From NCBI RefSeq assembly GCF_002159335.1, contig NZ_NFHP01000004.1:62001-126000 (forward strand): DNA of 64,000 nucleotides, given 5' to 3'. The DNA comes from Collinsella sp. An7. GTDB taxonomy: Bacteria > Actinomycetota > Coriobacteriia > Coriobacteriales > Coriobacteriaceae. Within the stretch, counting starts at the first letter, position 1; every line of letters begins with the position of its first letter. The position numbers were made by a program, and so were the translations under genes. Below the pieces are notes generated by a model. The model did not search any database, was not told the DNA's origin, and saw only the letters and a program-made list of their open reading frames with translations. Below, piece by piece: positions 23,492-39,872 of the stretch.

Positions 23492-23539
23492 CTGGGTCGA
23501 GCCGCTCCCTGCGGGCTCGGGCGATGCGGGGCTGTGGGC

Positions 23540-23761
23540 GTGAAGATCAACCGGCAGACGGGGATGTGCCCGCTGTGCACCGAGCGCTACCACCTGGAGC
23601 AGGAACGCGCCTTCAACGAGCAGCTGGAGCGAGAGCGGGCGGCGTGCGAGGAGTCCGCCGAGCTCGAGGAGGTTCGGCGCGAGCGGGACATGATGCGGCA
23701 GCGCAATTCGCGGCTGTGCAGGAAGTATGGGCTCAAGGGGAGGCGGGAGCGGAAGTGCTGA
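23540..23761 (+). CDS. Small Cys- and charge-rich protein of unknown function
   Basis: A 73-residue frame starts at GTG 23540 and contains GMCPLCTERYHLEQERAF, then a strongly charged helix rich in Glu and Arg, and ends RRERKC. The CPLC pair suggests a zinc knuckle followed by a coiled coil. No family is recognised. It begins about where the opposing Ada-like fragment loses homology, so it may itself be a fragment joined by the same deletion. Its stop is 4 bp from the HxlR stop. Confidence 0.35.
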   Translation: MKINRQTGMCPLCTERYHLEQERAFNEQLERERAACEESAELEEVRRERDMMRQRNSRLCRKYGLKGRRERKC

Positions 23762-23765
23762 CGCC

Positions 23766-24101
23766 TCAATCGCCTGGCCGGTTCCTCTCGCCCCAGACGC
23801 ACAGGAGGTCGAGGACCTCCATGAGCGACGCGCCTCGCTCCGTGAGCGAGTACTCGACGCGCGGCGGGATTTGGGGGTACTCCCTGCGCGCGACGAGCCC
23901 GTCGGCCTCGAGCTCCTTGAGGCTCCGCGAGAGCGTGCGGTCGGATACCCCGCCGAGGTAGCGGCGCATCTCGTTGAAGCGGACGGGCTGGTACTCCATG
24001 AGGCAGTAAAGGATTGACATCTTGTGCTTGCCCCGGATGAGCGAGAGCGTGTAGCTGTACCCCGTGCCCTCGAACGACGCGCCCTCTATGCCCCGCCCCA
24101 T
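23766..24101 (-). CDS. HxlR family transcriptional regulator
   Basis: This 111-residue winged-helix protein is of the HxlR/YodB type. The DNA-binding core reads LIRGKHKMSILYCLMEYQPV, then FNEMRRYLGGVSDRTLSRSLKELEADG and VEYSLTERG. No redox cysteine is placed as in YodB/HypR (the single obvious one is in the first helix). GGAGGGGG precedes the ATG at 24101. It is transcribed away from the flavin reductase gene across 155 bp, the usual arrangement in which an HxlR protein represses its neighbour, so it likely controls that gene. Confidence 0.9.
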   Translation of the reverse strand: MGRGIEGASFEGTGYSYTLSLIRGKHKMSILYCLMEYQPVRFNEMRRYLGGVSDRTLSRSLKELEADGLVARREYPQIPPRVEYSLTERGASLMEVLDLLCVWGERNRPGD

Positions 24102-24256
24102 GTCGCACCCCCTCCGTGAAGCTCCCGTCGCATGCGCTTTACCAAATGATAGCACCTGACATTAATGCCGGTACTTAACAGAATGAGGACGCAGGGAGAT
24201 ACTCGAGGCAGGATGGCGCGGCCTGGTGCGGCCGCTCGAGCAGAGGAGGAGAGGCC

Positions 24257-24817
24257 ATGAAAAAGAATCTCGGCGTGGCGGGCGAGCTGTTTCCCCAGTC
24301 GGTCTTCATCGTCGCGAGCTACGGGGAGGACGGGACGCCAAACGCCATGAACGTCGCGTGGGGCGGCGAGTGCACCCGCACGCAGGTGGCGATCAACATC
24401 GGCGACCACAAGACGACCGACAACATCCTGGCGCGCGGGGCGTTCACGGTTGCGCCCGCCGACGCGGCGCACGTCGCCGAGGCGGACTACTTCGGTATCG
24501 CCACCGGGCGCAGGGTCAACAAGGCCGAGGGGTCGGGGCTCACCTTCACGCGTTCCGAGTTCGTCGACGCGCCGGTCATCGAGGAGTTCCCCCTCACCAT
24601 GGAGTGTCGCGTGGTTTCCGTCGAGGACTGGGCCGGCGAGAAGCGCTTCGTTGGGGAGATCGTCAACACCCGCGTCGACGAGGCGGTGCTCGACGGAGAG
24701 GGGCGCGTCGACTTCTCCCGGATGCGCCCGATCGTGTACGACTCGACGCGTCGCGTCTACCGGGCCGTCGGGGAGGAGGTCGGCGGCGCCTGGAGCGCGG
24801 GGAAGGCCTTGATGTAG
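24257..24817 (+). CDS. Flavin reductase-like domain protein (flavoredoxin type)
   Basis: This 186-residue FMN-binding split-barrel protein is of the flavin-reductase-like family. FPQSVFIVASYGEDGTPNAM followed by NVAWGG is the flavin-site opening. VAINIGDHKTTDNILARGAF, DYFGIATGRRVNKAEG and LTMECRVVSVEDW are the usual later blocks. The electron donor and acceptor cannot be read. The site GAGGAGAGG precedes the ATG. Its divergent HxlR neighbour suggests induction by an electrophile or redox signal (inference). A terminator follows. Confidence 0.88.
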   Translation: MKKNLGVAGELFPQSVFIVASYGEDGTPNAMNVAWGGECTRTQVAINIGDHKTTDNILARGAFTVAPADAAHVAEADYFGIATGRRVNKAEGSGLTFTRSEFVDAPVIEEFPLTMECRVVSVEDWAGEKRFVGEIVNTRVDEAVLDGEGRVDFSRMRPIVYDSTRRVYRAVGEEVGGAWSAGKALM

Positions 24818-24935: not shown

Positions 24936-25357
24936 ATGGCGAGGCGGGCGAAGCTGACGCAGGAGATGGTCGACGAGGCGATCCGCCTCAAGGCGGACGG
25001 CCTTTCCAACGGCGACATCGTCTGCGCCCTGGGGATCCACGAGTCCACGTTCTACCGCTGGATCGGCGACCCCAAGAACAGGCTGCAGCGCGCGTTAAGC
25101 GAGGGCTAAAAAAGGAGGAGAGCGCGTTCAAGCGGACGCTGCTCACGACCATCCGCTCGGCGGCGCTGGCGAGAAACCAGTACTGGACGGCCGCCGCGTG
25201 GCTGCTGGAGCGCAAGTACCCGGACGAGTTCGGCAAGGCGGATCGCCAGCGCGATGACACCAACGCCGACGCCACGCCGAAGATCGTGCTCGGCGTGGTG
25301 GCGCAGCCGGTGCAGGAGACGCTGCCCGGCCTCGACGGGGGCGGCGCCGATGGTTGA
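24936..25357 (+). pseudogene. Phage terminase small subunit, frameshifted
   Basis: The first half reads MARRAKLTQEMVDEAIRLKA, then GIHESTFYRWIGDPKNRLQ and ends ALSEG-stop at about 25109, a helix-turn-helix DNA-recognition domain. The second half, LKKEESAFKRTLLTT then WTAAAWLLERKYPDEFGK, continues one frame back and ends at 25357. Adding one G to the GAGGG run just before CTAAAAAAG would restore a single protein of about 140 residues. So it is a frameshift by loss of one G, or a sequencing error. An intact subunit would bind phage DNA and hand it to the large terminase, which overlaps the end by 8 bp. Confidence 0.75.
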
Positions 25358-26627
25358 CGCGTCCTCGCTCGTGATTCCGGCCTTCCACGACGTGCTCGGC
25401 GACGTGATGGCCCACGGCCACACGCACTACTGGCTGCACGGCGGGCGCGGCTCCACGAAGTCGAGCTTCATCAGCCTGTGCGTCGTCCTCCTCGTCCTCA
25501 TGCACCCCGAGGCGAACGCGGTGGTGGTGCGGCGCTTCTCGAACACGCTGCGCGACTCCGTGTTCTTGCAGATGACGTGGGCGATCGCGGCGCTGGGGCT
25601 CGACGCGTGGTTCCGGGCCCGCATCTCGCCGATGGAGCTCACCTACCTGCCGACCGGGCAGCGCATCGTGTTCTGCGGCGTGGACGACCCGCTGAAGCTC
25701 AAGGGCGTGAAGTTCTCGCGCGGGTACGCCGCCGTGATCTGGTTCGAGGAGCTGGACCAGTTCGACGGCATCGACGCGATGCGGAGCATCCTGAACTCGC
25801 TTCGGCGCGGCGGCGAGGACTTTTGGATCTTCTACAGCTACAACCCGCCGCGCACGCTGTGGAGCTGGGTGAACCGCGAGAAGCTGGAGCGGGAGCGCAG
25901 GGCTGACACGCTCGTGCGGCAGAGCTCGTACCTCGACGTCGTCGAGAGCCACCCGGAGTGGCTGGGCGGACCCTTCGTCGAGGAGGCCGAGTACCTGCGC
26001 GAGGTCGACGAGCGGGCGTGGCGCTCGGAGTACCTGAGAGAGGTCACGGGCACGGGCGGCTCGGTCTTCAACAACGTGGTCTCGATGCGTCTGTCCGACG
26101 CGGCGTGCCGGGGCTTCTCGCGCACGCGTTGCGGCGTGGGCTGGGGGTGGTTCCCGGACCCGTGGCGGTTCGTGCGCTGCGGCTGGGAGCCCGGCGAGCG
26201 GCGGCTCACGATCTTCGGGGAGCTCTCGGCGAACAGGAAGACGCCCTCGGAGACGGCGGCGATGGTGGTCTCGGCGCTCACCTACGCTGACGAGCCCGGC
26301 GAAGATCCCTATCTTCATGATGAATTGATCTGATGCGACGACACTCCGGACGGCAAGCAGAGCATGGCCGTGTGGCGGCGCGAGGCGGGGCTTCGTGTTC
26401 GGCCCGCGAGGAAGAGCAACATGCGGCGGCTCAGCTACGAGTGGCTGGCGGGGCTGCGCGAGATCTGCATCGACCCGGAGCGGGCGCCGCTCGCCTACGA
26501 GGAGTTCCGCCTCAAGGAGTACGAGCGCGACCGCGACGGCACGTGGGTGGACGATATCCCGGACGGCAACGACCACTCCATCGACGCGGTGCGCTACGCG
26601 ATGATGGACGACGTGCTGAGGGGATAG
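25350..26627 (+). pseudogene. Phage terminase large subunit with an internal stop codon
   Basis: The ATPase part shows Walker A WLHGGRGSTKSSFIS and Walker B AVIWFEELDQFDG, typical of PBSX/SPP1-like terminases (Terminase_3). The frame meets TGA at 26331-26333 (after YLHDELI). It continues in the same frame with CDDTPDGKQSMAVWRREAG and SNMRRLSYEWLAGLREI to the natural end at 26627, part of the nuclease domain. The codons around the stop (26300-26335) are noticeably AT-richer than the rest. Unless TGA is read through, the packaging motor would lack its nuclease C-terminus. Start ATG 25350. Confidence 0.82.
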
Positions 26628-26702: not shown

Positions 26703-27440
26703 TTATAGGCGACCCTCGAGCGCCTCGAGATAGACCCCGGGATGCCACAAACTCGCCTCGCCGTGCCGCCAGCCAGGGTGCTCGACAAGCGTGCTGCCCG
26801 GCATGGCCTTAGCCAGGGCGCGCGCCGAGCGCACCATGATACGGGGCTCCTTCCCGCCGACAAGGATGGTGGCCCGCGCCCCGCAGCCCGCGAGCTCGGG
26901 TCTCAACCGGTAGGAACTGTTCGCCCGCATAAAGGCGATCATGTCCCGCTTTGATATGGCGCAGCTGTCACGGTAATAGGACTCGTAGAGCTCCTCGGGG
27001 AGATGGAGGCTCGCGAACTGCGCCCGCGCGAACCAGGGACGCCGCACGAGCGGGTAGCTCAGGGCGACGGCGGGCGCGACGAGGGCGCGGGCAGCACGCA
27101 TGGGGAGCACGAGCGCGCTCTCGATGACGGCGCGCCCCGCGATCCGCGGCTGCTGCGCAAGGGCCTCGAGGGCGACCTGCGCCCCGAGGGAGACGCCGCC
27201 GAGCGCGTCGACGCGCCCGCCGAGCTCGCGGTCGATGAGGGCAACGAGCTCGGAGGCGTTTTCCTCGATCGAGGTGAACGGTCGGTCCGAGCCGGCGTGC
27301 CCGTCGAGCACGGGTAGCACGACACGGTACCCGTTGGCGGCGAGCAGGTCGGCGACTGCCCGGTAGTTCCACCACGAGAGGCCGCCCCCGTGCAGGAGCA
27401 CCGCCGTCCGCGTGCCCGAGCCGAGCGTGTGAGTGATCAT
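26703..27440 (-). CDS. Alpha/beta hydrolase
   Basis: This 245-residue alpha/beta hydrolase fold protein has an oxyanion region VLLHGGGLSWWNYR, nucleophile elbow ALGGVSLGAQVALEAL (Ser in GVSLG), and a late EHPGWRHGEASLWHP histidine. It resembles small esterases/lipases of the AB_hydrolase_6 type; the substrate is unknown. It is read opposite to the phage genes, sitting between terL and portal. AAAGGA lies upstream of the ATG at 27440. It is flanked by CGTCCTTCTCG strings at 26638-26648 and 27755-27766, which may mark an insertion. Confidence 0.85.
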   Translation of the reverse strand: MITHTLGSGTRTAVLLHGGGLSWWNYRAVADLLAANGYRVVLPVLDGHAGSDRPFTSIEENASELVALIDRELGGRVDALGGVSLGAQVALEALAQQPRIAGRAVIESALVLPMRAARALVAPAVALSYPLVRRPWFARAQFASLHLPEELYESYYRDSCAISKRDMIAFMRANSSYRLRPELAGCGARATILVGGKEPRIMVRSARALAKAMPGSTLVEHPGWRHGEASLWHPGVYLEALEGRL

Positions 27441-27788: not shown

Positions 27789-29336
27789 ATGGGCGTGTTC
27801 GGACGAGGCGGGAGGTGCGCTGTGCAGGGGCTGGATGACGAGTACTGGGTGCCGGAGCATGTGAGGGAGTGGCTGAGGTCGCTCGGGTTCTCGCTGCCGC
27901 TGGAGGACATGGAGCCCCACATTCGCTCCTGGGATAGGTGGATGCGGGCGCTCGGGGACTTCTACGACTATCGGGACACGGACGGCGTGGGGCGCGTGTA
28001 CGAGGTGCACCGGCGCTCGATCCACCCCGCGATGCGGGTGTGCCGCGAGTGGGGGTCGCTGCTGCTGAACGACCGGACGCAGGTGGCGTGCGAGGAGCAG
28101 GCGTGCACGGACTGGCTCACGCGGTTCATCGCGGACACGGGGTTCCTGCCGGCGGCGCAGGCGACGGTGGTGCGCGCGTTCGGCCTGGGGACCGGGGCGT
28201 GGGCGCTCTGGGTGGACGCGGGCGCGGGCGAGGTGCGCGTGAGGAGATACGACGCGCGGATGGTGGTGCCGCTCACGTGGGACGAGGAGGGCGTGACGGA
28301 GTGCGCGTTCGTGACGCGGGCGTTCTGGAGGGGCAGGGCCATCGACCAGGTGCAGCTGCATCTGAGGGGCGCTGACGGCACGTTCTTCTTGCCAAGCGAA
28401 TCATCTGGAGGGGCTGTGGCGGCAGGTTCTTCTCGCCCAAGCTTTTCTCCCCTTGAAAGCGGCGCACGTGAGGAAACCTATCGGATTGTAACCGCCTGCT
28501 TCGACCGTGACGGGAACCGCGTCGAGCCCGAGGGCGTGTGCCCGGTGTACGACACGGGCTCGGCGTGGCCGACTTTCGCGCTCGTGAAGCCGGCTATCGA
28601 CAACACGCGGGTGGACATGAGCCCCTACGGGCGGTCGGTGTTCGCGGACGCGGTGGACGCGATCCAGGCGGTCGACCTCTGCTACGACGCGATGATGGGC
28701 GAGATCGACAACGGGAAGATGCGCGTGTTCCTCTCGGACGTGATGTTCGACGTCGAGCGCGACGGCAAGGGCGGGCGCGTCTCCATCCCCTTCGGGCGCC
28801 AGGACTGCACGGTGTTCCGCAAGGTCATGAGCACGGAGGACACGATCCACGAGTTCGCGCCGACGCTGCGCACTGAGGCGCAGGCGCGGGCGTTCCGCGT
28901 GGCGCTGCAGACGCTCGGGGACCTCTGCGGCTTCGGCATCAACTACTTCGACCTCGAGAACGTCGGGTACGTGAAGACGGCCACGGAGGTGTCGACGGAC
29001 AACTCGGCGCTGATGCGCAACATTCGCCGGCACGAGCGCGCGCTCGAGGGCGCGCTCGCGGGCATCTGCCGCGCGCTGCTCGCGGCCGAGCGCAGGCTCG
29101 GGGTGGAGCTGCCCGACGAGGGGCTCGTGCGCGTCACGTTCGACGACAGCATCATCACGGACACGACGGCGGAGAAGCGCCAGGACATGGACGAGGTCGC
29201 CGCTGGGCTCCTGGAGCCGTGGGAATACCGGGCCAAGTGGCGCGGCGAGGACGAGGCGACCGCTCGCAGGGCGTCGGCGGGACGCGCGCTCCAGGGTACA
29301 CCGACTCCGGCAACCCTCTCCACCGCCCCTGCCTGA
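27789..29336 (+). CDS. Phage portal protein (SPP1 Gp6/A118-like)
   Basis: This 515-residue protein would form the dodecameric portal ring through which DNA enters the capsid. Features of the A118/SPP1 portal group are WRALGDFYDY-like N-terminal helices, a CREWGSLLLNDRTQV segment, GVCPVYDTGSAWPTFALV, and the late CGFGINYFDLENVGYVKTAT followed by EVSTDNSALMRNIRRHE. A Ser/Gly/Pro-rich linker (about residues 200-225) has different codon use. ATG 27789 is used; GTG 27822, with GGGAGG upstream, is an alternative. The gene appears intact, unlike the terminase genes before it. The usual minor capsid gene is missing after it. Confidence 0.85.
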   Translation: MGVFGRGGRCAVQGLDDEYWVPEHVREWLRSLGFSLPLEDMEPHIRSWDRWMRALGDFYDYRDTDGVGRVYEVHRRSIHPAMRVCREWGSLLLNDRTQVACEEQACTDWLTRFIADTGFLPAAQATVVRAFGLGTGAWALWVDAGAGEVRVRRYDARMVVPLTWDEEGVTECAFVTRAFWRGRAIDQVQLHLRGADGTFFLPSESSGGAVAAGSSRPSFSPLESGAREETYRIVTACFDRDGNRVEPEGVCPVYDTGSAWPTFALVKPAIDNTRVDMSPYGRSVFADAVDAIQAVDLCYDAMMGEIDNGKMRVFLSDVMFDVERDGKGGRVSIPFGRQDCTVFRKVMSTEDTIHEFAPTLRTEAQARAFRVALQTLGDLCGFGINYFDLENVGYVKTATEVSTDNSALMRNIRRHERALEGALAGICRALLAAERRLGVELPDEGLVRVTFDDSIITDTTAEKRQDMDEVAAGLLEPWEYRAKWRGEDEATARRASAGRALQGTPTPATLSTAPA

Positions 29337-29468: not shown

Positions 29469-30713
29469 TTAGCCTTCGTCCTTCTCGCCCGCCCTTGTCG
29501 ACACCGCTCGGATGACGTCCCCGTCGATGACGATGGCGTCGGCCTCGTTGAAGGCGAAGCGAAGGGTCTCGAGCTCGCTCTCGGTCCTCTCGGCGATAGC
29601 CCTCACGACGTTCTCGGACCCCATGGCGTCCCGCAGATCGGCCTTCTCGGCGGCGAGGTTATCCTTCGCGGCGCTTCTCGCCCGCACGGGGCTTATGCGC
29701 GACGCCTGTCTCCGCACCGCGTCGAACGCGGCGGCGGCACCCTTGGCCCCCTCGTTCGCCTCGACGGGGTCGGCGAGCGCCAGCGGCGCACCCTTGAGGG
29801 AGGATATGCGCCTCTCGACCTGCTCGCGCGCGGCGTTCCGGGCGCTCGTCAGCTCCTTTGACGCCTTCCCGACCATAGAGAGCTCCTTCTCGATGCGCTC
29901 GCCCGTGTAGTCGCACTCGAGGCGCATGCCGATCTCGCGCGCGGCGACGAGGAGCTGGAAGGCCGCCGCGGCGTGCGCCTCCGACCTTCGGAGGCCCCCT
30001 ATCGCGCGCTCGACGTCCGCCCGGGACATCCTCCCCTTGGCGGTCTTCGATGCGATCCCCCGCATGGCGTCCGCTTCGTAGTGGCACGCATCCTGCGCCT
30101 CGACGGTGGCGTCCTCGATCGCCTGGAGCGCGACGGTGCGCTTGTCGGAGTCGGCGCCGCTCTCGTCGAACATGAGGGCCACGCGCTCGAGCGCGTCGAA
30201 CCGGGCCTTGAGCCTGCACTCGCGGCTGCGCTCCATGGCGCGCTGGATCTCGGCGACGCCCTCGGATATGCCCTCGAGCTTGTCGTTGATCTGGGTCATG
30301 TATGCCTGGCCGACGAGCACCGCCGCGCCCTGGAGCGCGAGGTTGGCGACGACGGTCGGCTGGAGCCCCGCCTGCTTGATTGTCGCCATCTCGTTGAACT
30401 TGCCGTCCTTCATGTTGGAGAGCAGGTTCCAGCCGTCGCTCTTACACACGCAGAGGTCCGCCCAGCCGACGCCCTCGGGGAACTTGACCACCGCCATGCC
30501 GTAGGACTGTGCCGCCTGCGCCGCGTTCGCGGCGGCGGGTATGAGTGCGTCGGCGAAGGATGCCGCCCGCTCGCCCGCGGCAACGACCACGGTGCGCGTA
30601 ATGGTCTCTTCGATCGGCGCGAGCTCGCAGTCGCCCGCGAGGGTGATGGATGGCTCCGGGTCGCGGTCGTCCTCGGGTTGGTTTCTGTTGAAGATGCGGT
30701 CGAGGAAGGACAT
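29469..30713 (-). CDS. Protein of unknown function (414 aa)
   Basis: I do not recognise this protein. It has a charged N-terminus (MSFLDRIFNRNQPEDDRD), a central hydrophobic or amphipathic stretch around residues 105-140 (TVVANLALQGAAVLVGQAYM), then INDKLEGISEGVAEIQRAME and long helices with coiled-coil character to the end. No signal peptide or enzymatic motif is seen. CAGGAGG precedes the ATG at 30713. It lies just after the portal gene on the opposite strand and is the last of the minus-strand cargo genes. By position it could be a phage-resistance or membrane-associated accessory protein, which is speculation. Confidence 0.7.
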   Translation of the reverse strand: MSFLDRIFNRNQPEDDRDPEPSITLAGDCELAPIEETITRTVVVAAGERAASFADALIPAAANAAQAAQSYGMAVVKFPEGVGWADLCVCKSDGWNLLSNMKDGKFNEMATIKQAGLQPTVVANLALQGAAVLVGQAYMTQINDKLEGISEGVAEIQRAMERSRECRLKARFDALERVALMFDESGADSDKRTVALQAIEDATVEAQDACHYEADAMRGIASKTAKGRMSRADVERAIGGLRRSEAHAAAAFQLLVAAREIGMRLECDYTGERIEKELSMVGKASKELTSARNAAREQVERRISSLKGAPLALADPVEANEGAKGAAAAFDAVRRQASRISPVRARSAAKDNLAAEKADLRDAMGSENVVRAIAERTESELETLRFAFNEADAIVIDGDVIRAVSTRAGEKDEG

Positions 30714-31112: not shown

Positions 31113-31781
31113 TTAGTGGCTTGCAGTGTTCGCAAGCCACCAGTCAACGTCCACATGGCATTCAATGTTAATGGGCTCTGGTGAGAAGTCGGGCATTGAA
31201 GAGTCGCCAAGTGGACTCGAAGGCGGGGCTGCGTCGAAGCAGATCGTGCCGAATCCATCGTTATCGCGCCGGTAGCGGATTTCTTTGACGCCCCCGAGCA
31301 CCATTCCCGCTGCCTCTGCAAGCGTTTCCGCACTGCTTCGGGCGCGCTCGACCGCCTGCCTGATGAGGGCGTCCTCAGATGCGTGCACGTCTTTCAGCTC
31401 ATAATGCAGCCCAATCGATGCCGACGTTCCGCACTCCGCAAGCGCCTGCCAAATCGCGCCCACGTCGTTGTTCTTGCGGGTGACTTCCAAGCTCCCGTAG
31501 CAGACATAGTCATAGCCGTCGATCGTGCCCCTCTTGCCCGTGCGGTGGGCATAGGATGCGTATCCTGACGTCTTGAAATCATCGACCACGCCGAACCGTT
31601 CGAGCGCGACCTTCACCTTCTGTTGCTCTGAGGCGAAATCTGTTGCGCAGGCGTCCTGAGCCTTGCAGCGTCGTCCGAACCTGATGCCGAATATCGCGAT
31701 GTCGGGCTCAATCGACGCCTCCGCAGTCGCTCCCACCTTCACTACCGGGGCCTGCGTACGCATAATCTCCTCGCCTGTCAT
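31113..31781 (-). CDS. SIMPL (DUF541) domain protein
   Basis: This 222-residue SIMPL/DUF541 protein has a family opening, VKVGATAEASIEPDIAIFGI, a central YEL..VHASEDALIRQAVERA helix region with RSSAETLAEAAGMVLGGVKE, and a C-terminal strand pair (INIECHVDVDWWLAN). Many family members are secreted or membrane-linked and one interacts with a kinase. This one has no signal peptide, so it should be cytoplasmic. The start at 31781 has AAGGGAAG upstream; an internal ATG at 31763 (MRTQAP) also has a ribosome-binding site. It follows res by only 25 bp and is probably the fourth gene of the restriction-modification operon. Confidence 0.8.
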   Translation of the reverse strand: MTGEEIMRTQAPVVKVGATAEASIEPDIAIFGIRFGRRCKAQDACATDFASEQQKVKVALERFGVVDDFKTSGYASYAHRTGKRGTIDGYDYVCYGSLEVTRKNNDVGAIWQALAECGTSASIGLHYELKDVHASEDALIRQAVERARSSAETLAEAAGMVLGGVKEIRYRRDNDGFGTICFDAAPPSSPLGDSSMPDFSPEPINIECHVDVDWWLANTASH

Positions 31782-31806
31782 GTTGAACTTCCCTTGTTTA
31801 GCCGAC

Positions 31807-34629
31807 TTACTCGTACTTGTGGGACAGCGGGCCACGGTAAAGCTCTTCTGCCATGTCGCCGTCGAATCCTATGATTGCATCCTGCACCTTGGGGTCGAGC
31901 AGGTTGAGCGACCGATACTTGTCGTGCCCCTCGCTCATGGAACTGATAGAGAGCACTTGGACGAATGTGTCGGGATACTCGCGCAGGTACTCTACGTAGC
32001 CCTTGAGCTTCGGAACGGCGTCAGCGAGGTACGAGCCGTGCGGATCGATGATCGAGGGCCGGATTGTCCCCTCCGCATCACGTACGAAGAAGATGAAGTC
32101 GGGATGTACTGCCTTGCGGCCGACGGGTGAGGTGTACGGAATGGAGAAGGCGAGGGGTGACATGCTTTCCGCCGGATTACGATAGAAGGCCACGGTTCGG
32201 GGCCGCTCAAGCTCTCGGCTCACTACGTAGGTTTCATCGTCGTTGAGGTCGAGCGGGCAGAGGCCGTCCTCCTCCTGGACGATGTGCTTGGGCCAGCGCG
32301 TCTCTGCCGCCTTGACGTTCACGGTTTCCGGCCACTGCATGTGCGTAGTGAGCTTGCTCCCCGTCTCGCTCTCCAGTTCACGGTAACGCTGCTTGTGCTT
32401 GTCGCTCAAAAGGTCGTACTCCGTGGAGCCCTTGTCGAAGAGGCCCACGCGTTCGGTCTTCGCCCACTCACTCAGCGCCGTTACGACAGATGCTGTGCGA
32501 CATGCCGCGGCGAGGTCGAGGTCCATTTGTCTGCGAGTCTTTCCCTCAAAGAGGAGGCGCTTGCGATAGGCGTTGGTGAGCTCGCGTCCCCCGAAGACGG
32601 CGTCGGCTTCGCGCGCTGCCTTGGCAATCCCCTCGTCATCAACGACGACCTCTTCGCCGCGCTCGGTCACCTCATTGCCGTGACGCTTGTCGATACGGAT
32701 GAGCTTGGTATTGGTGGTCTCGATTTCGGTGCGAACGGGCTCGACCTCGTCTTCGCAGCTGACGAGCGCCCCCGCGAGGTTGCGGGCGAAGTCCTCGTTG
32801 ACGCGCCTGCCGGCGTCGCGGTCTATCCCTGTGTCCATGAAGAGGGTGGCTGTTCTGAGGAGGCTCACGAACTCGTTGCGCGCCTTCTTGGGATTGCGGC
32901 GCACCTCGATGCTCTCGAAGGCCGCCCGTATCCCGTCCCACTCTTCATGAGTAAACGAACCATCTCGAGGGCTTAGCGGCTTCGGAGGCGCCATGGGCGT
33001 AGGCTTCACCACGCTGTCATACTCGATGTTTACAGTAGCACCCTGCTGCGGATGATTGCCATCGGATCCCTCGGTTGGTGGAGTCGATACGAAATCAATC
33101 TTTGTCTGGACATTCTCCGGGTTTTCGCCGAGTTCGAACTGATAGCCCGGCTTATTCTTTTCCGCCTCGCGTCGGGCTGCCTCAGCCCTTTCATAGGCGA
33201 TCTGCTCCCGTTCGTAATCCTCCTGCGTGCGGGGAGCCGCCGCGCGTACTGTTACGGGCTGAACGGTAACCTTCGCCACTGCGGTGCCGCCCATCTCGTC
33301 CGTCTTGCCAGTGAGGTAGTCGACCACTCCTTGCGTGGCATCTCTGTTGAACTGAGGCAGATAGCATGCTATTGAGTTGAGCAGATCGTCAGCCTCGACT
33401 CGACGCGCGAGCGGCGTACGGACCATGCGGCCGATGAGCTGCGCAATGTAGGTGGGATCCTTGCGATTGCGCTGGGAGAAGATAACCTCGGCTCTGGGGC
33501 AGTCCCATCCGTTGGAAATCGCTTCCTTGGCGAAGAGCACCTGGATGTGGGGGCTCGCCTGCACGAGCTCGGGTCTGACGTAGGGGATGAGGTACTTGCC
33601 CGCGGCAAGGTCCTTGTGGTCTCCGAACACGTTGGCGAACGACGCGGCCTCATTGAGCCCGGGCACGATTTTGCAAATCTGGTCGCACATCTCCTTGATG
33701 CTCTCGGTGGACTGCTTGTCCTTGACCTGCACAATCATGAGCGGCCAGACGAACTGCTCGCCCTGCTCACGGCAGTACGTGTCCCAGTGCTCCCGGCAGA
33801 GCTGGAAGCGCTCGGCTGCCATGGTGAGGTATTGGTGCTCAACGGGGTCGTCGCTCTCGGGAACGCGCAGCTCGATTGTGTCCTTAATGAGGCCGGACTC
33901 TTGGACATCTGTCGGCGACACGCTGACCCGTGCCTTGCGGTCGCGGTCCCGCATGCCGTCCATGCGGGCCTCGAATCTCTCCGGGGTCGCCGAGACGCCC
34001 ACGACCATGGGCATGGGCGCCCTGTCCTCGTAGCCGTTCACGATGTTGCCGTATATGGTCTCCGTCGACTTACCGCCAGAGGCGTTTGTGCCGAATCCGC
34101 GATGCGCCTCATCGATGAAGAGGTAGAGGTTCACAGCTGGGTCCTTGATTGTGCGGTCGAGCACGTCCCAGAACACGCGGCCGGAATTCTCCTCGCCTCC
34201 CTTCACGAGCTTGTTGCCGCGTCCGAGAAGGTCCTTTGAGAGGAAGTAGACATGGCGTGGGTCGAGTACCTCATGAGCAGCGCAGAACGTGTTGCCCACG
34301 TCCTCCAGGCAGCGTGTGTCGCCCGGCCAGTCGGCGAGCTTGTCGGAGCAGGATACGAATCGCGCATGGGTCTGCTCGTTCAGGCTCGGGGAGTCGGAGA
34401 CCCAGAGCACGGTGGCGCGCTCGTCGGGTAAAAGACCGAGCTCGTCGTTGCCGAAGAACAGCGCTTCGATAACGGCGGCGCACATGACCGTTTTGCCTGA
34501 TCCCGTGATCGAGGAGAGGCAGACACTCGACAGGGCACCGTCTCGTTCGTATGCGGAGCGCATCTGGCGAAGGCGATCGTAGAGCGTAACGACCGCATTT
34601 GTTTGGAAGTCTTTGAGCTCGACTCTCAT
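31807..34629 (-). CDS. Type III restriction endonuclease subunit Res-like DEAD/DEAH helicase
   Basis: This 940-residue superfamily 2 translocase/restriction subunit has Walker A TGSGKT (42-47), DEAH (173-176) with IDEAHRGFGTN, motif III GVSATP (about 211-216), and motif VI-like IAQLIGRMVRTPLARR. A C-terminal nuclease-like segment reads HPDFIFF (842-848) followed by IIDPHG (860-865), then PKLKGYVEYLREYP. Canonical type III nucleases show D...(E/D)xK; here the second half is D-P-H, so cleavage chemistry may differ. It starts 3 bp after the mod stop and needs Mod for target recognition in known systems. SIMPL follows. Confidence 0.88.
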   Translation of the reverse strand: MRVELKDFQTNAVVTLYDRLRQMRSAYERDGALSSVCLSSITGSGKTVMCAAVIEALFFGNDELGLLPDERATVLWVSDSPSLNEQTHARFVSCSDKLADWPGDTRCLEDVGNTFCAAHEVLDPRHVYFLSKDLLGRGNKLVKGGEENSGRVFWDVLDRTIKDPAVNLYLFIDEAHRGFGTNASGGKSTETIYGNIVNGYEDRAPMPMVVGVSATPERFEARMDGMRDRDRKARVSVSPTDVQESGLIKDTIELRVPESDDPVEHQYLTMAAERFQLCREHWDTYCREQGEQFVWPLMIVQVKDKQSTESIKEMCDQICKIVPGLNEAASFANVFGDHKDLAAGKYLIPYVRPELVQASPHIQVLFAKEAISNGWDCPRAEVIFSQRNRKDPTYIAQLIGRMVRTPLARRVEADDLLNSIACYLPQFNRDATQGVVDYLTGKTDEMGGTAVAKVTVQPVTVRAAAPRTQEDYEREQIAYERAEAARREAEKNKPGYQFELGENPENVQTKIDFVSTPPTEGSDGNHPQQGATVNIEYDSVVKPTPMAPPKPLSPRDGSFTHEEWDGIRAAFESIEVRRNPKKARNEFVSLLRTATLFMDTGIDRDAGRRVNEDFARNLAGALVSCEDEVEPVRTEIETTNTKLIRIDKRHGNEVTERGEEVVVDDEGIAKAAREADAVFGGRELTNAYRKRLLFEGKTRRQMDLDLAAACRTASVVTALSEWAKTERVGLFDKGSTEYDLLSDKHKQRYRELESETGSKLTTHMQWPETVNVKAAETRWPKHIVQEEDGLCPLDLNDDETYVVSRELERPRTVAFYRNPAESMSPLAFSIPYTSPVGRKAVHPDFIFFVRDAEGTIRPSIIDPHGSYLADAVPKLKGYVEYLREYPDTFVQVLSISSMSEGHDKYRSLNLLDPKVQDAIIGFDGDMAEELYRGPLSHKYE

Positions 34630-34632
34630 CTC

Positions 34633-36786
34633 TTACCTCACTGCATCCTCGGCGGCGATCTTGAACGATCGCAGGTAGCTTTCGTACAGTCTCACGCACT
34701 CGAGGTCCCCGAGCTCAGCTTTTACGCTGGCGAAACGCCCGGCGTCATCTGTCACGATGAAGACGCATGAGAGCGCAGGCTTTGAGCGCACGGAGCCGAC
34801 AAACTCGCGCACGCAGCTGTAGTCGAAGAGGACGGCGTAGGTGTCTGCGACGGCGAAGCCTCTCTCTTCGTGTCCGATCATTCTCCCACGGGCGCCTGCC
34901 CTGAGCCAGAGCAGGGGCGCGACCTCCTCGAAAGCGGCTCCCAGCTCCACGGCGTCGGGATTCTGGTAGGTGAGGTCGAAGAAGACTGCGTTCTCCTCGA
35001 AACCGTCCGCCATGGGAAACTCGTCGGTAAACTTGTAGTCGCCCTTTATGGGATCTCCGTCCGGAGTGCGCCCAGTGATAGCGGCCCTGATGCGAGGCTT
35101 GGTTATATACTCGCAGATGCCGAAGTGCTCCCACTCGGGGTCACCATGGCGATAGCCCTGCTTCGTAAGCTCCTTTTCCTCCACCTCTGAGACCTCGTTG
35201 TTCGTCACGCAGATGCAGCGTCGATGGCCGCCGTCCTGGTGGTTGAGACGCATAACCGCGTGGGCAGTGGTACCGGAACCAGAAAAGAAGTCAAGCACGA
35301 GAGCATTAGGGTTGTTTCTGATCACGAAAGAGAGCGCATCTTCAACTGCATACAATGATTTTGGATAAGAGAATTTCCTCTCGGGCAGTAGCGCCCCGAT
35401 TAAGAGAGAGCCATGTGTCTCTGCATTATGGGATTTCTTGTTCCATACGCGTTTCGGAATAACCCCTTTTTCAACTCTATAGCTGCATATTACGGATCCG
35501 TCTTCATTTCGCCCAACAATGCGAATGGACCCTGATTCTATGGCGTTAACAGTACCCTCCGGTAAATATTTAATTGTGATGTTGCGCATTCCCTTCCGTT
35601 GGGTAACGCTGGATCGGATATACCCTTTCGATAAATCTCTTCTTGCAGTAGAAGGGGTTATTCCCCAAATCCCCTCTGTGCCGTTTTTCCTTAAAGGCCA
35701 AACGGCGTCGCATCCTTCAGGACACGGCACGGAATTTCTTTCCACATTGTCCGCAATTGAATCTCCGATTGATTTTATGAACCCTGTTTCAGAGTCAACA
35801 AAAACCGGATAGAACTGGTCTTTTCGCGCACCACGCACCGCACTTGGTTCACGCCGACGCATCCCCAGCCAATCAACATCTTTACCTAACTTCTCTTTAG
35901 AATTGCGGGTATTATCAAGCATGTTGTCTGCGCCTAAGCCAATTTCGGCTTCGCCAATTCGGACAAAAAAGAGATACTCTTCAACCCGAGAAAACTGTCC
36001 CGCACGCGCTACTCCCTTTGCGCTTATAACGGTGGTGATCATCTCGCTGCCGCAAGACGGGAACAATTGCTCCAACAGCAATCCAAGCCGCAGATATTCT
36101 TTTTCATCAATTGCCACAATTAGAACTGAGCTAGCTGGATTGAGCAACTTCTTCGCGAGCTTGAGGCGACGCTCCATCATGGCGAGCCATTTGGAGTGAC
36201 GGTACTCGTCGCTGCCATCAACGTAGTCGTTGTTGTATTTCCAATCCTTCGCGCCTGAGTTGTAGGGCGGATCAATATAGATGCAGTCAACCTTGCCTGC
36301 GTAGCAGAAGAGCAGGCTCTCGAGTGCGTGGTAGTTCTCACCGTTGATGACGACCTGATAGGGCTTGTCGCCGCCGCGCTCCACGCGCCCAGTTTCGCGG
36401 AGACCTGCATAGATAGGCTGGTCGTACTCCGCGACCGCCACGAGGTCGTCAACATTCGCCTGTCGCGGTTCTTCGTCGTTTTCGTTGTAGCTGTTGGTAC
36501 GATAAGCGGTGAGGCTGGCAGTGCTCCCGCAGATGGCGTCGACGAGCCAGAGCAGCTTGGAAGCGGCACCCTCTTTCTTTCCACGCTCAGGGAGCACTTG
36601 GACCACGTCGCCGGCAGACACGGCCTTTCCGTAGAGCCTCATACGCTCCGGGCGGTTGTGCTCGAAGACGAGACCGAATTGCCGCGAGGCGGCGAACGCC
36701 CTGATTTCCGAGGCGAGCACATCGTCTCCGAGGCGAGAGGCGCGCTCAATCATGTCCTGTATTTGAGCTTGCGCTGTCTGTGCCAT
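34633..36786 (-). CDS. Type III DNA methyltransferase Mod (N6-adenine, beta class)
   Basis: This 717-residue protein would methylate adenine in the recognition site and specify it for Res. Order of motifs is beta class: IV DPPYNSG (172-178) precedes I DFFSGSGTT (499-507). The variable target-recognition region lies between them, about residues 240-480 (DNA 35340-36060). It is clearly AT-richer than both flanks, pointing to exchange of the specificity domain. GGAGGG precedes the ATG, and the stop of the small upstream gene is 2 bp away, so the two are translationally coupled. The target sequence cannot be read. Confidence 0.93.
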   Translation of the reverse strand: MAQTAQAQIQDMIERASRLGDDVLASEIRAFAASRQFGLVFEHNRPERMRLYGKAVSAGDVVQVLPERGKKEGAASKLLWLVDAICGSTASLTAYRTNSYNENDEEPRQANVDDLVAVAEYDQPIYAGLRETGRVERGGDKPYQVVINGENYHALESLLFCYAGKVDCIYIDPPYNSGAKDWKYNNDYVDGSDEYRHSKWLAMMERRLKLAKKLLNPASSVLIVAIDEKEYLRLGLLLEQLFPSCGSEMITTVISAKGVARAGQFSRVEEYLFFVRIGEAEIGLGADNMLDNTRNSKEKLGKDVDWLGMRRREPSAVRGARKDQFYPVFVDSETGFIKSIGDSIADNVERNSVPCPEGCDAVWPLRKNGTEGIWGITPSTARRDLSKGYIRSSVTQRKGMRNITIKYLPEGTVNAIESGSIRIVGRNEDGSVICSYRVEKGVIPKRVWNKKSHNAETHGSLLIGALLPERKFSYPKSLYAVEDALSFVIRNNPNALVLDFFSGSGTTAHAVMRLNHQDGGHRRCICVTNNEVSEVEEKELTKQGYRHGDPEWEHFGICEYITKPRIRAAITGRTPDGDPIKGDYKFTDEFPMADGFEENAVFFDLTYQNPDAVELGAAFEEVAPLLWLRAGARGRMIGHEERGFAVADTYAVLFDYSCVREFVGSVRSKPALSCVFIVTDDAGRFASVKAELGDLECVRLYESYLRSFKIAAEDAVR

Positions 36787-36788
36787 GG

Positions 36789-36980
36789 CTAACCCTCCGC
36801 TGCGCTCTGGGCGCGGCGCCTGCGCTCTTCGCCCATCATCTGCCTGAACAAATCGATCTTTTTCATACCGGACCTCTGGGCCCAGCGCTCGAACTCCTCG
36901 TACTCCTTCGTCGTCGTGTTGAGGAGCAGGCAGGTGTGGTCCATCGGGGTGGGGCCCGGATTTTTTCTTTCCTGAGACAC
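36789..36980 (-). CDS. Small ribbon-helix-helix-like protein, putative regulator of the RM operon
   Basis: A 63-residue protein starts with GTG at 36980 behind GGGAGG. The pattern is a short strand (HTCLLLNTT), helix (TKEYEEFERWAQRSG) and helix (KKIDLFRQMMGEERRRR), as in Arc/CopG-type ribbon-helix-helix DNA-binding proteins. It is the first gene of the operon and is followed after 2 bp by mod. A 13-bp inverted repeat overlapping the operon -10 box lies 20-50 bp upstream of its start, the natural binding site for such a dimer. Role as autorepressor or timing protein is inferred. Confidence 0.6.
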   Translation of the reverse strand: MSQERKNPGPTPMDHTCLLLNTTTKEYEEFERWAQRSGMKKIDLFRQMMGEERRRRAQSAAEG

Positions 36981-37000
36981 GCTCTGACCTCCCGTTTATC

Positions 37001-37031
37001 TATATTCCATATATTTATTATATGGGATATA
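37001..37031 (-). promoter_or_regulatory. Operon promoter inside a 13-bp palindrome (putative operator)
   Basis: TATATTCCATATA (37001-37013) and TATATGGGATATA (37019-37031) are inverted copies with one mismatch, spaced by 5 bp. On the minus strand a perfect TATAAT -10 box (37022-37017) sits across the centre. A weak -35 (TTCCTC, 37045-37040) is 17 bp upstream. The site is very AT-rich in GC-rich surroundings and lies just upstream of the RHH-mod-res-SIMPL operon. Confidence 0.7.
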
Positions 37032-37073
37032 GGAAGACCGAGGAAGAGCGCCCTCGCCTTTTCGACGTGAGGA

Positions 37074-37694
37074 TTACTTTTCAGCTAGGGAACTGAGCTG
37101 GAGTTTGTTGCGATCTACGAGTAATGCGAAATCCGGACTGAGCCACATGCTCGACTCTCCCGGTCCGAGGACGAGAGGCATGCGGTCGTGGATGGGAGCA
37201 ACGCTCGCGTTGGGCGTGGTGGTCACGATAGAGAAGTGGCCCTCCTCCTGGATGGCGGCGAGCAGGAATGCCCGGGCGCTGGGGAGGCGGAAGCGGTACT
37301 GGCGGCGGACGGGCTTGCCTGTCTGCTCGCTTATGACCTTCTCTGTGGCGCTGGACTCGTAGAAGGCGCGCACCGGCACGAGGCAGCGGCCGTGCGCGAT
37401 GGCCTTAGCCCACATGCCGCGCCTCCCACGTCGGAACTGCTCGAGTGCGGACTCTATGCGGGTGTTGAAGACGGCGTGCGGCTTGCCGTCCAGCGGAAAG
37501 CCCCACTCGAGCTTTGCCACAGTGAGGGCGCCGTCCTCCTTGGGGACGTAGACGGCGACGGTGGAGCCGGGATGCGCGTCGTGCATGGCATCGAATTGCC
37601 AGTCGTCGTCAAGCGCGTGGCCGCGCCCGCTATCGCGGGCGTCGAGCACTGCCTGGGCCTCCTCCACTGTGAGCGGGCTGAACCGAACGCACAT
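37074..37694 (-). CDS. SOS response-associated peptidase (SRAP/YedK-HMCES family)
   Basis: This 206-residue protein is of the family that crosslinks to abasic sites in single-stranded DNA and protects replication forks. The required residues are present: Cys2 (MCVRFSP), Asn77 in VFNTRIE, Glu113 in RAFYES and His169 in APIHDRMPLVL. The active-site blocks differ from the commonest wording (FNTRIE rather than NARSE), so it is a diverged member. GGAGGAG precedes the ATG at 37694. It lies just upstream of the restriction-modification promoter, same strand. Mobile copies of this family are frequent in phage and plasmids. Confidence 0.88.
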   Translation of the reverse strand: MCVRFSPLTVEEAQAVLDARDSGRGHALDDDWQFDAMHDAHPGSTVAVYVPKEDGALTVAKLEWGFPLDGKPHAVFNTRIESALEQFRRGRRGMWAKAIAHGRCLVPVRAFYESSATEKVISEQTGKPVRRQYRFRLPSARAFLLAAIQEEGHFSIVTTTPNASVAPIHDRMPLVLGPGESSMWLSPDFALLVDRNKLQLSSLAEK

Positions 37695-37815: not shown

Positions 37816-38331
37816 ATGGATGGCTTGCAGGACGGGACGCAGCAGGTCGACGAGGGCGCGGCGCAGCAGCCGGAGCCGCAGGGCGACCAGGCGCAGCAGG
37901 CGCCGGCGCAGGTAGGGTCGGGCGACGCCGCGAGGGCGCGCGCGGACTACGAGGCGGCGCTCAAGGAACGCGACGCGAGAATCGCGGAGCTCGAGGGCGA
38001 GATCGCCGAGGCCGCGAAGACGGCCGAGAGCGCGGAGAAGCTGCGCGCCGAGATGGACGAGCTGCGGCGCCAGGGCGACGAGCAGCGAATCGGCTTCGAG
38101 CTGCAGCTCGCCGGCGTGCGCAACGTCAAGGCCGCCCGCGCCCTTCTCGCCGACTACGACAACGACGTGGAGAAGCTCAAGGCCGCCGAGCCGTGGCTGT
38201 TCGGTGCGGGTGCGGCCTCTCCGGCGCCTGCGGGCGCCACCGGGCTCCCCAACGCGGGAGCCGCGGCCGACGAGGGTTCGCAGATGAGGCGCTGGCGCAG
38301 GATCGCCGGCATCGAGGACGACAGGGAGTAG
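37816..38331 (+). CDS. Phage capsid scaffolding protein
   Basis: This 171-residue protein is acidic and Gln/Ala-rich at the N-terminus. A long coiled coil follows (about residues 45-110: YEAALKERDARIAELEGEIA, EKLRAEMDELRRQGDEQ) and then VRNVKAARALLADYDNDVEKLK, the usual shape of head scaffold proteins of SPP1/A118-like phages (DUF4355/GP20 type). It lies 3 bp before the capsid gene, as expected. AAAGGAC precedes the ATG at 37816. It appears intact. Confidence 0.75.
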   Translation: MDGLQDGTQQVDEGAAQQPEPQGDQAQQAPAQVGSGDAARARADYEAALKERDARIAELEGEIAEAAKTAESAEKLRAEMDELRRQGDEQRIGFELQLAGVRNVKAARALLADYDNDVEKLKAAEPWLFGAGAASPAPAGATGLPNAGAAADEGSQMRRWRRIAGIEDDRE

Positions 38332-38334
38332 AGC

Positions 38335-38697
38335 ATGCCGAGCTCAATCGCATACACGAGGAACTACACGAGCATCCTGGACGAGGTCTACAAGCGCGCG
38401 GCGTGCTCGACGTGCGTGAACAGCCCGCGCCGCATGGCGCGCGCGGGGCGCAACGCCAAGGAGATCATGGTCCCGAAGATCGAGGTGTCGGGCCTCGGCG
38501 ACTACACGCGCAACATGGGCTACAAGACGGGATCCATCACCTACGGGTTCGAGACCAAGACGTTCAACTACGACCGCGGCATCAAGCTCGTGGCCGACGT
38601 GGTGGACGCGGGGGAGGCCGACGCCCTCGGCCGTTTCGTCGCCGCCGGCCCCGAGCTGCAGCGCACGCCGCCATCTTTTTACTGCCAGTGGCGGTAA
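38335..38697 (+). pseudogene. Phage major capsid protein, N-terminal part only
   Basis: The first about 110 codons match a phage major capsid protein (YTRNYTSILDEVYKRAA, then KIEVSGLGDYTRNMGYK, FETKTFNYDRGIKLVADVVD, FVAAGPELQRT). The homology ends at about 38667, where a near-perfect hairpin (38671-38705) begins. The frame stops at 38697 after a few unrelated residues, so roughly two thirds of the protein are missing. I could not find the rest downstream. No functional capsid can be made from this locus. Confidence 0.75.
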
Positions 38698-38851: not shown

Positions 38852-38885
38852 GCCTTGCTTGAAATTGGCCGATGGTGGTATAAAC
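38852..38885 (+). promoter_or_regulatory. Possible promoter near the Abi gene start
   Basis: TTGCTT with an 18-bp gap to TATAAA lies around 38854-38883. It overlaps the TTG start chosen for the Abi protein; if real, it argues for a leader or small RNA between here and the first ATG at 38991. Confidence 0.3.
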
Positions 38886-39872
38886 CATATCGACAGTACC
38901 CCACACGCGAGCGGCAACGCAGCGAACCAGGCGGGGTCATCTTTTTCTCCGCTTCCAGAAGCAACGACCTACGTCGAGCAGCTCTCCAAAATGAAGGGGC
39001 GAGGCCTCGCCGTTGCCGACGAGGGGCTTGCCATCGCCCGGCTGCGCGACCTGAACTACTATCGGCTCCGCGGCTACTGGCTCACGCTCGAGCGGGACGG
39101 TTCCTTCATCGAGGGCGCGAGTTTCGATGACATTTGGGAGATCTACCAGCTCGATCGTGGACTTCGCACGTGGCTCTGGCGCGCGATAGCACCCGTCGAG
39201 ATTAAGCTGAGGACCCAGTTCGCCTACTACTTCGCCCATCTGTGCGGCGCCGACGCTTATCTCAATGTCGAAAACTACAGGAGTGCCTCCGGGTTCCAGA
39301 AGGCCGTCTCGAACTTCGAGCGAGAGAGGGACAGGGCCTACAGCCAAGGCGTGCCCTGCGTGGTTCATAACATGGATAAGTACGGAAAGCTGTCGGTTTG
39401 GGCAGCGGTGGAGTGCATGTCGCTTGGCACGCTCTCGATGCTCTATGGGAACCTCGACCCCGACACGGGCACCAGCGACAGCTCGAGAGGGGTTCAGGCG
39501 GAGGTCGCGGAAGCCTTTGGCACAAAGCCGTACTACCTGAGAAGCTGGATGCACCATCTGACCACGGTCCGCAATATTGCCGCCCACCACGACCGCTTCT
39601 ACAACCGCGTGATGACCATCCGTCCCGCTCTCCTGAAGAGGGACGAGAAGTGCGTCAGACGACGCGACATGAGCAAGCAGTTCCCGACCTTCCTCGTGAT
39701 TCGCAGAATATACGAGAAGTCTTGGCCTGAGGAATGGGAGTCGCTCCTGGATGAGCTTGCCTCCTGCATCGAACAACATCCTTCCGTCAGCCTTATCCCC
39801 ATGGGTTTCCCGAAGGACTGGATGAGCAGGATGGGCGCGGCTACGTCCAGGGCGATCATCCCGAGGACGTAG
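38859..39872 (+). CDS. Abi family protein (Abi_2, AbiD/AbiF-like HEPN)
   Basis: This is an abortive-infection family protein, 337 residues if the TTG at 38859 is used. Family blocks are ATTYVEQLSKMKGRGLAV, LRDLNYYRLRGYWLTLER, RAIAPVEIKLRTQFAYYFAH and LRSWMHHLTTVRNIAAHHDR. The last holds the HEPN R-x4-H motif (R238, H243), expected to be the RNase or toxin active site. Start choice is uncertain: TTG 38859 keeps the conserved ATTYVEQL segment, while ATG 38991 would lose it. Neither has a good ribosome-binding site. Related genes protect against phage by halting growth. It occupies the place of the missing capsid half. Confidence 0.85.
   Translation: MKLADGGINHIDSTPHASGNAANQAGSSFSPLPEATTYVEQLSKMKGRGLAVADEGLAIARLRDLNYYRLRGYWLTLERDGSFIEGASFDDIWEIYQLDRGLRTWLWRAIAPVEIKLRTQFAYYFAHLCGADAYLNVENYRSASGFQKAVSNFERERDRAYSQGVPCVVHNMDKYGKLSVWAAVECMSLGTLSMLYGNLDPDTGTSDSSRGVQAEVAEAFGTKPYYLRSWMHHLTTVRNIAAHHDRFYNRVMTIRPALLKRDEKCVRRRDMSKQFPTFLVIRRIYEKSWPEEWESLLDELASCIEQHPSVSLIPMGFPKDWMSRMGAATSRAIIPRT

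Follow-up and report, generated by a model that had tools for sequence, protein, structure and literature searches.

Four adjacent minus-strand genes in Collinsella sp. An7, encoding in the order of transcription a small ribbon-helix-helix (RHH)-like protein, the putative Mod and Res proteins of a type III restriction-modification (R-M) system and a protein of the SIMPL/DUF541 family, raise the question whether they constitute one functional unit or owe their proximity to the place at which they are found. The DNA analysed here, referred to as the window, is a stretch of 64,000 nucleotides (contig NZ_NFHP01000004.1 of assembly GCF_002159335.1, positions 62,001 to 126,000, forward strand), and an earlier note on it had read the cassette as a described restriction system extended by an undescribed accessory, namely the SIMPL protein. 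Absent from that note was the location of the cassette, which sits between a phage portal gene and the phage scaffold and capsid genes, all of these being encoded on the opposite strand, and near a SRAP and an AbiD gene. The explanation put forward here, which is considered quite probable, is that an integrative, head-making element of the Coriobacteriales has a cargo slot between its portal and scaffold genes which accommodates many alternative defence payloads, the complete type III R-M operon being one of them.

Relatives of the portal protein were identified in 77 of the 297 genomes of the order, and 42 portal loci were examined (the window, L074 and L105-L144; G, L and C numbers are our handles for genomes, loci and contigs), with portal and scaffold both lying within the available stretch in 26 of them. 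In the 25 copies other than that of the window the slot between these two genes measures 4,782-12,686 bp (median 9,676), and different gene sets were found between the same two conserved genes, the 26 slots holding 168 genes that fall into 109 BLAST clusters (genes were called with the author's own codon-score script, not with a standard gene finder). By direct match or BLAST homologue, a defence family of PADLOC or Pfam was identified in 20 of the 25 slots and a restriction or methyltransferase gene in 17. Cargo assigned in this way comprises type III R-M (L106, L107, L111, L119, L133, L136 and L141, as well as L118 with Mod), type II R-M (L126-L130 and L134), type I R-M (L131), a methyltransferase together with PDC-S06 (L140, L142), the DISARM-like DrmD (L118) and HKD-SNF2 (L133, L136, L141), next to the families AbiH, GmrSD, IetS, Ppl-like, Abi_2 and HEC-01A. 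A fragment of a relative of the window's Res resides in the equivalent slot of G264 (L074), and PADLOC models matched 26 of 30 large cargo proteins as compared to 2 of 10 host genes not belonging to the element. As judged from its gene content, the slot is a large defence hotspot inside the head module. A description of such a slot was not found in the open-access literature searched, and the accessible portions of PMC10023795 and PMC13060105 name no such element.

For the cargo of the window, the open reading frame (ORF) coordinates verified the gene order given by the earlier note as well as the gaps of 25, 3 and 2 bp (SIMPL-Res, Res-Mod and Mod-RHH); the RHH ORF, however, starts with a GTG at 36980, not at 37031. 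Its assignment as a type III R-M operon with a small RHH-type gene is believable from motifs and family matches, so that this part of the earlier description was upheld. As in type III systems, of which EcoP1I and EcoP15I are the prototypes, mod is followed by res, whereby Mod possesses DPPY at position 172 and then FSGSG at 501, as found in beta-class DNA methyltransferases, and Res the superfamily-2 helicase motifs GSGKT (43), DEAH (173) and SAT (213). The window system differs from them by the RHH gene ahead of mod and by the nuclease-like motif of Res, in which PDF at 843 is followed by DPHG at 862; an alignment of nine sequences revealed that this subfamily has PD...DPHG/EPH where PD-ExK is expected, with H, D and K being invariant.

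The RHH-type gene ahead of mod recurs, as such an ORF adjoins the mod start in 5 of the 12 Mod-Res loci examined (window, G078, G195, G294 and G286), ending 2 bp before to 11 bp after it; in G188 and G209 a different helix-turn-helix (HTH)-type ORF is located there, the type names RHH and HTH being the author's reading. Scanning Pfam and NCBIfam gave no significant family match for the RHH-like ORF of the window, and its label is weakly supported by the residue pattern, by a structure model of two helices (mean pLDDT, i.e., predicted local distance difference test, 72) and by non-significant Foldseek matches which include ParG, CopG, ParD and Arc. Upstream of it lies an inverted repeat whose arm match was equalled by 5 of 1000 first-order Markov resamples; the TATAAT within this repeat was noted by eye, and a promoter scan gave no full promoter there. 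Perfect palindromes of 12 and 11 nt precede the RHH-type ORF in G078 and G195, and upstream of the small genes of L068 and L133 only imperfect palindromes were found. Together, the RHH-type ORFs before mod, the upstream palindromes and the resampling result point to a likely autoregulated type III operon. Whereas anatomy, slot conservation, defence content and the absence of a SIMPL-res linkage elsewhere are read from the DNA directly, regulation, restriction activity, the role of SIMPL and the mode of cargo exchange are what we infer beyond it: the RHH protein would probably bind the upstream inverted repeat and limit expression, Mod would methylate the host DNA and Mod-Res would cut unmarked incoming DNA, with SIMPL, the 414-aa protein U414 and the SRAP protein being separate passengers of the slot, the first of which may be transcribed by read-through from res.

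Several observations weigh against the cassette being a defence payload of such a slot. The PADLOC scan covered 30 of the 162 cargo proteins outside the window, mostly large ones, and no clear defence gene was seen in the slots of L109, L114, L117, L124 and L143. Moreover, PADLOC models match ordinary ATPases too, and single ATPase matches need caution, because both matching host genes resemble ordinary enzymes. Of the 42 portal loci, 16 are without a scaffold gene; in some of these the contig ends early, and nine offer 12.3-14.1 kb of downstream sequence without it, so that their slot must be longer or have decayed. Portal and capsid gene are about 16.7 kb apart in G041. As to the window's system itself, restriction by Mod-Res is a predicted activity, and the nuclease motif of Res departs from PD-ExK, though its histidine is invariant in the nine relatives. 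Next to this, the window copy of the element is decayed: the gene of the terminase small subunit (TerS) is frameshifted, that of the large subunit (TerL) holds a stop, the major capsid protein (MCP) is cut at residue 111, and neither integrase nor tail genes were found in this copy. It was considered whether the cassette is a relic as well, i.e., whether the R-M genes are drifting within a dead element. However, all four reading frames of the cassette are still open and the motifs of Mod and Res intact, and such a relic is judged improbable.

The nature of the element that carries the slot can be approached from its better preserved copies G116 and G090, in which integrase, repressors, primase, terminases, portal, slot, scaffold, capsid, connectors, Dit, Tal-like, fibre-like and endolysin genes follow each other in this order. 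Within the phylum sample of 396 genomes, its capsid was detected in 11, all belonging to the same order. An ordinary temperate siphophage, with the slot being a common moron site, would account for the presence of the integrase, repressor, primase, terminase, Dit, Tal-like, fibre-like and endolysin genes, and yet it appears unlikely, as the last connector and Dit are separated by 152-203 bp in all 37 stretches compared (at least nine of which are duplicates, since nine IMG/VR stretches represent the same elements as genome loci and were left in the count). This gap is too small for tail-tube and tape-measure genes, neither of which was found elsewhere in the three elements that were read through. 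Related phages possess both between connector and Dit, namely L181, as judged by size and position, and the Eggerthella phage PMBT5 (MH626557), according to its annotation. With PMBT5 the element shares the order portal, scaffold, MCP, its MCP being 36.5% identical, and differs from it in that PMBT5 is a complete siphophage of 30.9 kb, which the accessible part of the PMBT5 paper describes as lytic. The portal-scaffold interval of PMBT5 amounts to about 6 kb and holds, according to its annotation, a methyltransferase and a Lar-like gene; thus the slot may be older than the Coriobacteriales element family. In the sister loci L187-L191 portal and capsid are about 0.7 kb apart and a slot is missing.

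Gene order and spacing suggest that the element either borrows the tail tube of a helper or forms an unusual short-tailed particle, and the slot-bearing head module perhaps belongs to a capsid-making satellite. Its more elaborate version is suggested tentatively: head-making satellites of the Coriobacteriales would have lost tail tube and tape measure and would possess their own tail-tip and host-recognition genes, and the slot in the head module, about 13 kb long at most, would serve to carry entire defence systems as payload (among them type I and III R-M), which the host could retain after decay of the element. Capsid and tip would dock onto the tail of a helper.

Two groups of known mobile systems, the P2/P4 hotspots and the capsid-forming phage-inducible chromosomal islands (PICIs), the latter reportedly described originally by Alqurainy and colleagues in 2023, resemble the element, which by the tests made appears to be a member of neither. 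The hotspots of P2 and P4 are, in the accessible part of their description, 3.2 and 2.6 kb long on average, adjacent to cos and said to be without type I R-M (Rousset et al. 2022, PMC9122126). As far as that part goes, they have in common with the slot that alternative defence genes are located between two conserved phage or satellite genes, and the slot differs by its length of 4.8-12.7 kb, by its position inside the head module and by holding type I, II and III R-M as well as DISARM-like genes. Capsid-forming PICIs form their own capsids and derive their tails from a helper, as stated in the accessible part of PMC10690885. On this basis, common to them and the element are an own integrase, primase, terminases, portal, capsid and connectors as well as the lack of a tail tube; all of these genes are present in G116 (TerL from G090), and the window copy has lost several. 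The element differs from them by its scaffold gene, by the lack of a visible capsid protease and by retaining Dit, Tal-like, fibre-like and lysis genes. A check for the protease and HNH genes of PICIs revealed the scaffold and no protease, and the 140-aa gene before TerS was found to match just an unknown PHROG. Because the tail-tip genes (Dit, Tal-like, fibre-like) are retained, and capsid-forming PICIs are expected to lack tail genes, the element was not classed with them.

This leaves the SIMPL gene, for which a conserved place in the order RHH-mod-res-SIMPL had been expected. SIMPL is present in 28 of the 297 order genomes and in 9 of the 65 family genomes, the window genome having a single copy, and among those nine the pairing with res occurs in the window genome only; none of the 27 other SIMPL loci has a relative of the window's Res in its flanks, of which up to 1.5 kb were inspected per side. 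Res relatives, in turn, were identified in 13 of the 297 order genomes, window included. Nine of the 12 others are readable downstream and show no SIMPL there by tblastn; in G262, G078 and G020 the sequence ends about 0.1-0.5 kb past res, and these genomes gave no SIMPL match anywhere. Four other genomes own both SIMPL and Res, on separate contigs. In the phylum sample Res was found in 5 of 396 genomes, of which three are additional and without SIMPL downstream, so that over both samples SIMPL adjoins res in none of the 15 other res genomes, 12 of them readable downstream. Scanning contigs with Res yielded one relative, from Collinsella tanakaei, without SIMPL downstream (L002 being the stretch of L063), and in IMG/VR relatives of neither SIMPL nor Res were found. 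Within the genomes sampled the pairing is thus confined to the window strain, an outcome that the earlier note itself had named as refuting its proposal, and SIMPL as a conserved accessory was rejected, as linkage to res is missing from the order, phylum and family samples alike.

The alternative that SIMPL works in the cytoplasm as an accessory dedicated to the type III system, e.g., as a ring-forming scaffold or a stress sensor acting on Mod-Res, draws on its orientation on the same strand as res at a distance of 25 bp, on a junction for which neither terminator nor promoter was predicted on the cassette strand, and on the lack of a leader. The gap presumes that SIMPL starts with the ATG at 31781, as the alternative GTG at 31835 overlaps res. 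That the protein is without signal peptide was confirmed insofar as no N-terminal hydrophobic stretch was seen by eye; the contrast with many relatives does not hold for the eight aligned with it, which likewise lack a hydrophobic N-terminus (several rows of this alignment begin inside the gene, and L032 was excluded for an in-frame stop), and hence a leaderless SIMPL is usual here. Pfam family and fold are shared with the SIMPL/DUF541 proteins BP26 (4hvz, matched by the SIMPL model with a Foldseek E of 3e-10) and C. jejuni 7c50, BP26 differing in being periplasmic by name. Some SIMPL relatives also reside near defence genes, i.e., type I R-M (G074, G154), a type IIG-like/GmrSD pair (G263), Abi_2 (G210) and a C5 methyltransferase (G096). 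However, SIMPL adjoins none of the other res relatives of the order and phylum samples, the nearest SIMPL (58%, G070) is without res alongside, and in G174 and G094, which share the SIMPL flanks of G074 and G154, R-M genes are missing from the 7.5 kb inspected; the accessory is thus judged highly improbable. Considering the missing linkage to res and the mixed surroundings of its nearest relatives, the most suitable reading of SIMPL at the window locus is that of a solitary passenger, not of a conserved R-M subunit, and for the original claim this means that it is dropped as a likely subunit. An account linking SIMPL to restriction was not found in the open-access literature searched. At the SIMPL loci L033 and L035 (G074, G154) the distance between SIMPL and the type I R-M genes amounts to 1.4-5 kb.

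If the operon is indeed one payload among many, much of what distinguishes the strains of a major group of gut bacteria in their phage defence could be traceable to one slot, and an inventory of defence payloads would be obtained by reading the interval between portal and scaffold, with new ones being indicated among unknown cargo such as U414. Large systems (type I and III R-M) would then travel in phage-like particles, and the element would provide a testable case of a head and a tail tip without a connecting tube.

Table 1. Features of the cassette and of the element copy surrounding it (window coordinates)
Feature	Position	Strand	Basis
h140 element-gene fragment, residues 63-139, 96%	23525..23755	+	tblastn
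Terminase small subunit, frameshifted	24936..25327	+	tblastn, two frames
Terminase large subunit, one in-frame stop	25350..26627	+	tblastn, 92% over 425 aa
Alpha/beta hydrolase between TerL and portal	26703..27440	-	weak NCBIfam hydrolase matches; same gene adjoins portal in G204/L105
Portal protein, left edge of slot	27789..29336	+	Pfam SPP1_portal below cut-off; relatives in other genomes of the order
U414, unknown 414-aa cargo gene	29469..30713	-	ORF; no match in Pfam, PADLOC or NCBIfam
SIMPL/DUF541 protein, 222 aa, leaderless, downstream cargo gene	31113..31781	-	Pfam PF04402, 81.5 bits (cut-off 25.2)
Res, putative type III restriction helicase/nuclease, 940 aa	31807..34629	-	Pfam ResIII; PADLOC REase_III; motifs; 9-sequence alignment
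Mod, putative type III N6/N4 DNA methyltransferase, 717 aa	34633..36786	-	PADLOC MTase_III 9e-217; Pfam N6_N4_Mtase
RHH-like small regulator (putative), 63 aa, GTG start	36789..36980	-	ORF; similar ORFs before mod at 4 other loci
Operator-like inverted repeat, 14-nt arms 93% complementary, 5-nt spacer, TATAAT hexamer inside	37000..37032		repeat search and resampling
SRAP (HMCES/YedK-type) gene adjoining scaffold gene	37074..37694	-	Pfam SRAP; same cluster in 5 of 26 slots, window included
Capsid scaffold protein, right edge of slot	37816..38331	+	Pfam Phage_scaffold 1e-6, below cut-off; kept beside MCP
Major capsid protein, homology stops at residue 111 of 338	38335..38697	+	tblastn; intact relative is PHROG major head protein
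AbiD/Abi_2 gene past capsid break	38859..39872	+	PADLOC AbiD 6e-73; 77% identical gene inside G171/L127 slot

Among the neighbouring genes (Table 1), the recurrence of SRAP beside the scaffold gene suggests that it may be a fixed right-edge neighbour in one lineage. Elsewhere in the window genome, contig C11 (L210, 1-6000) starts with capsid and scaffold pieces beside polysaccharide-type genes, such as are also found in the slot of L120, and surface-polysaccharide genes may hence be a further payload. Finally, a gene for an HxlR-type regulator and a flavoprotein-like gene, both named by eye, were located at 23766-24817 between the h140 fragment and TerS, a possible further cargo site.

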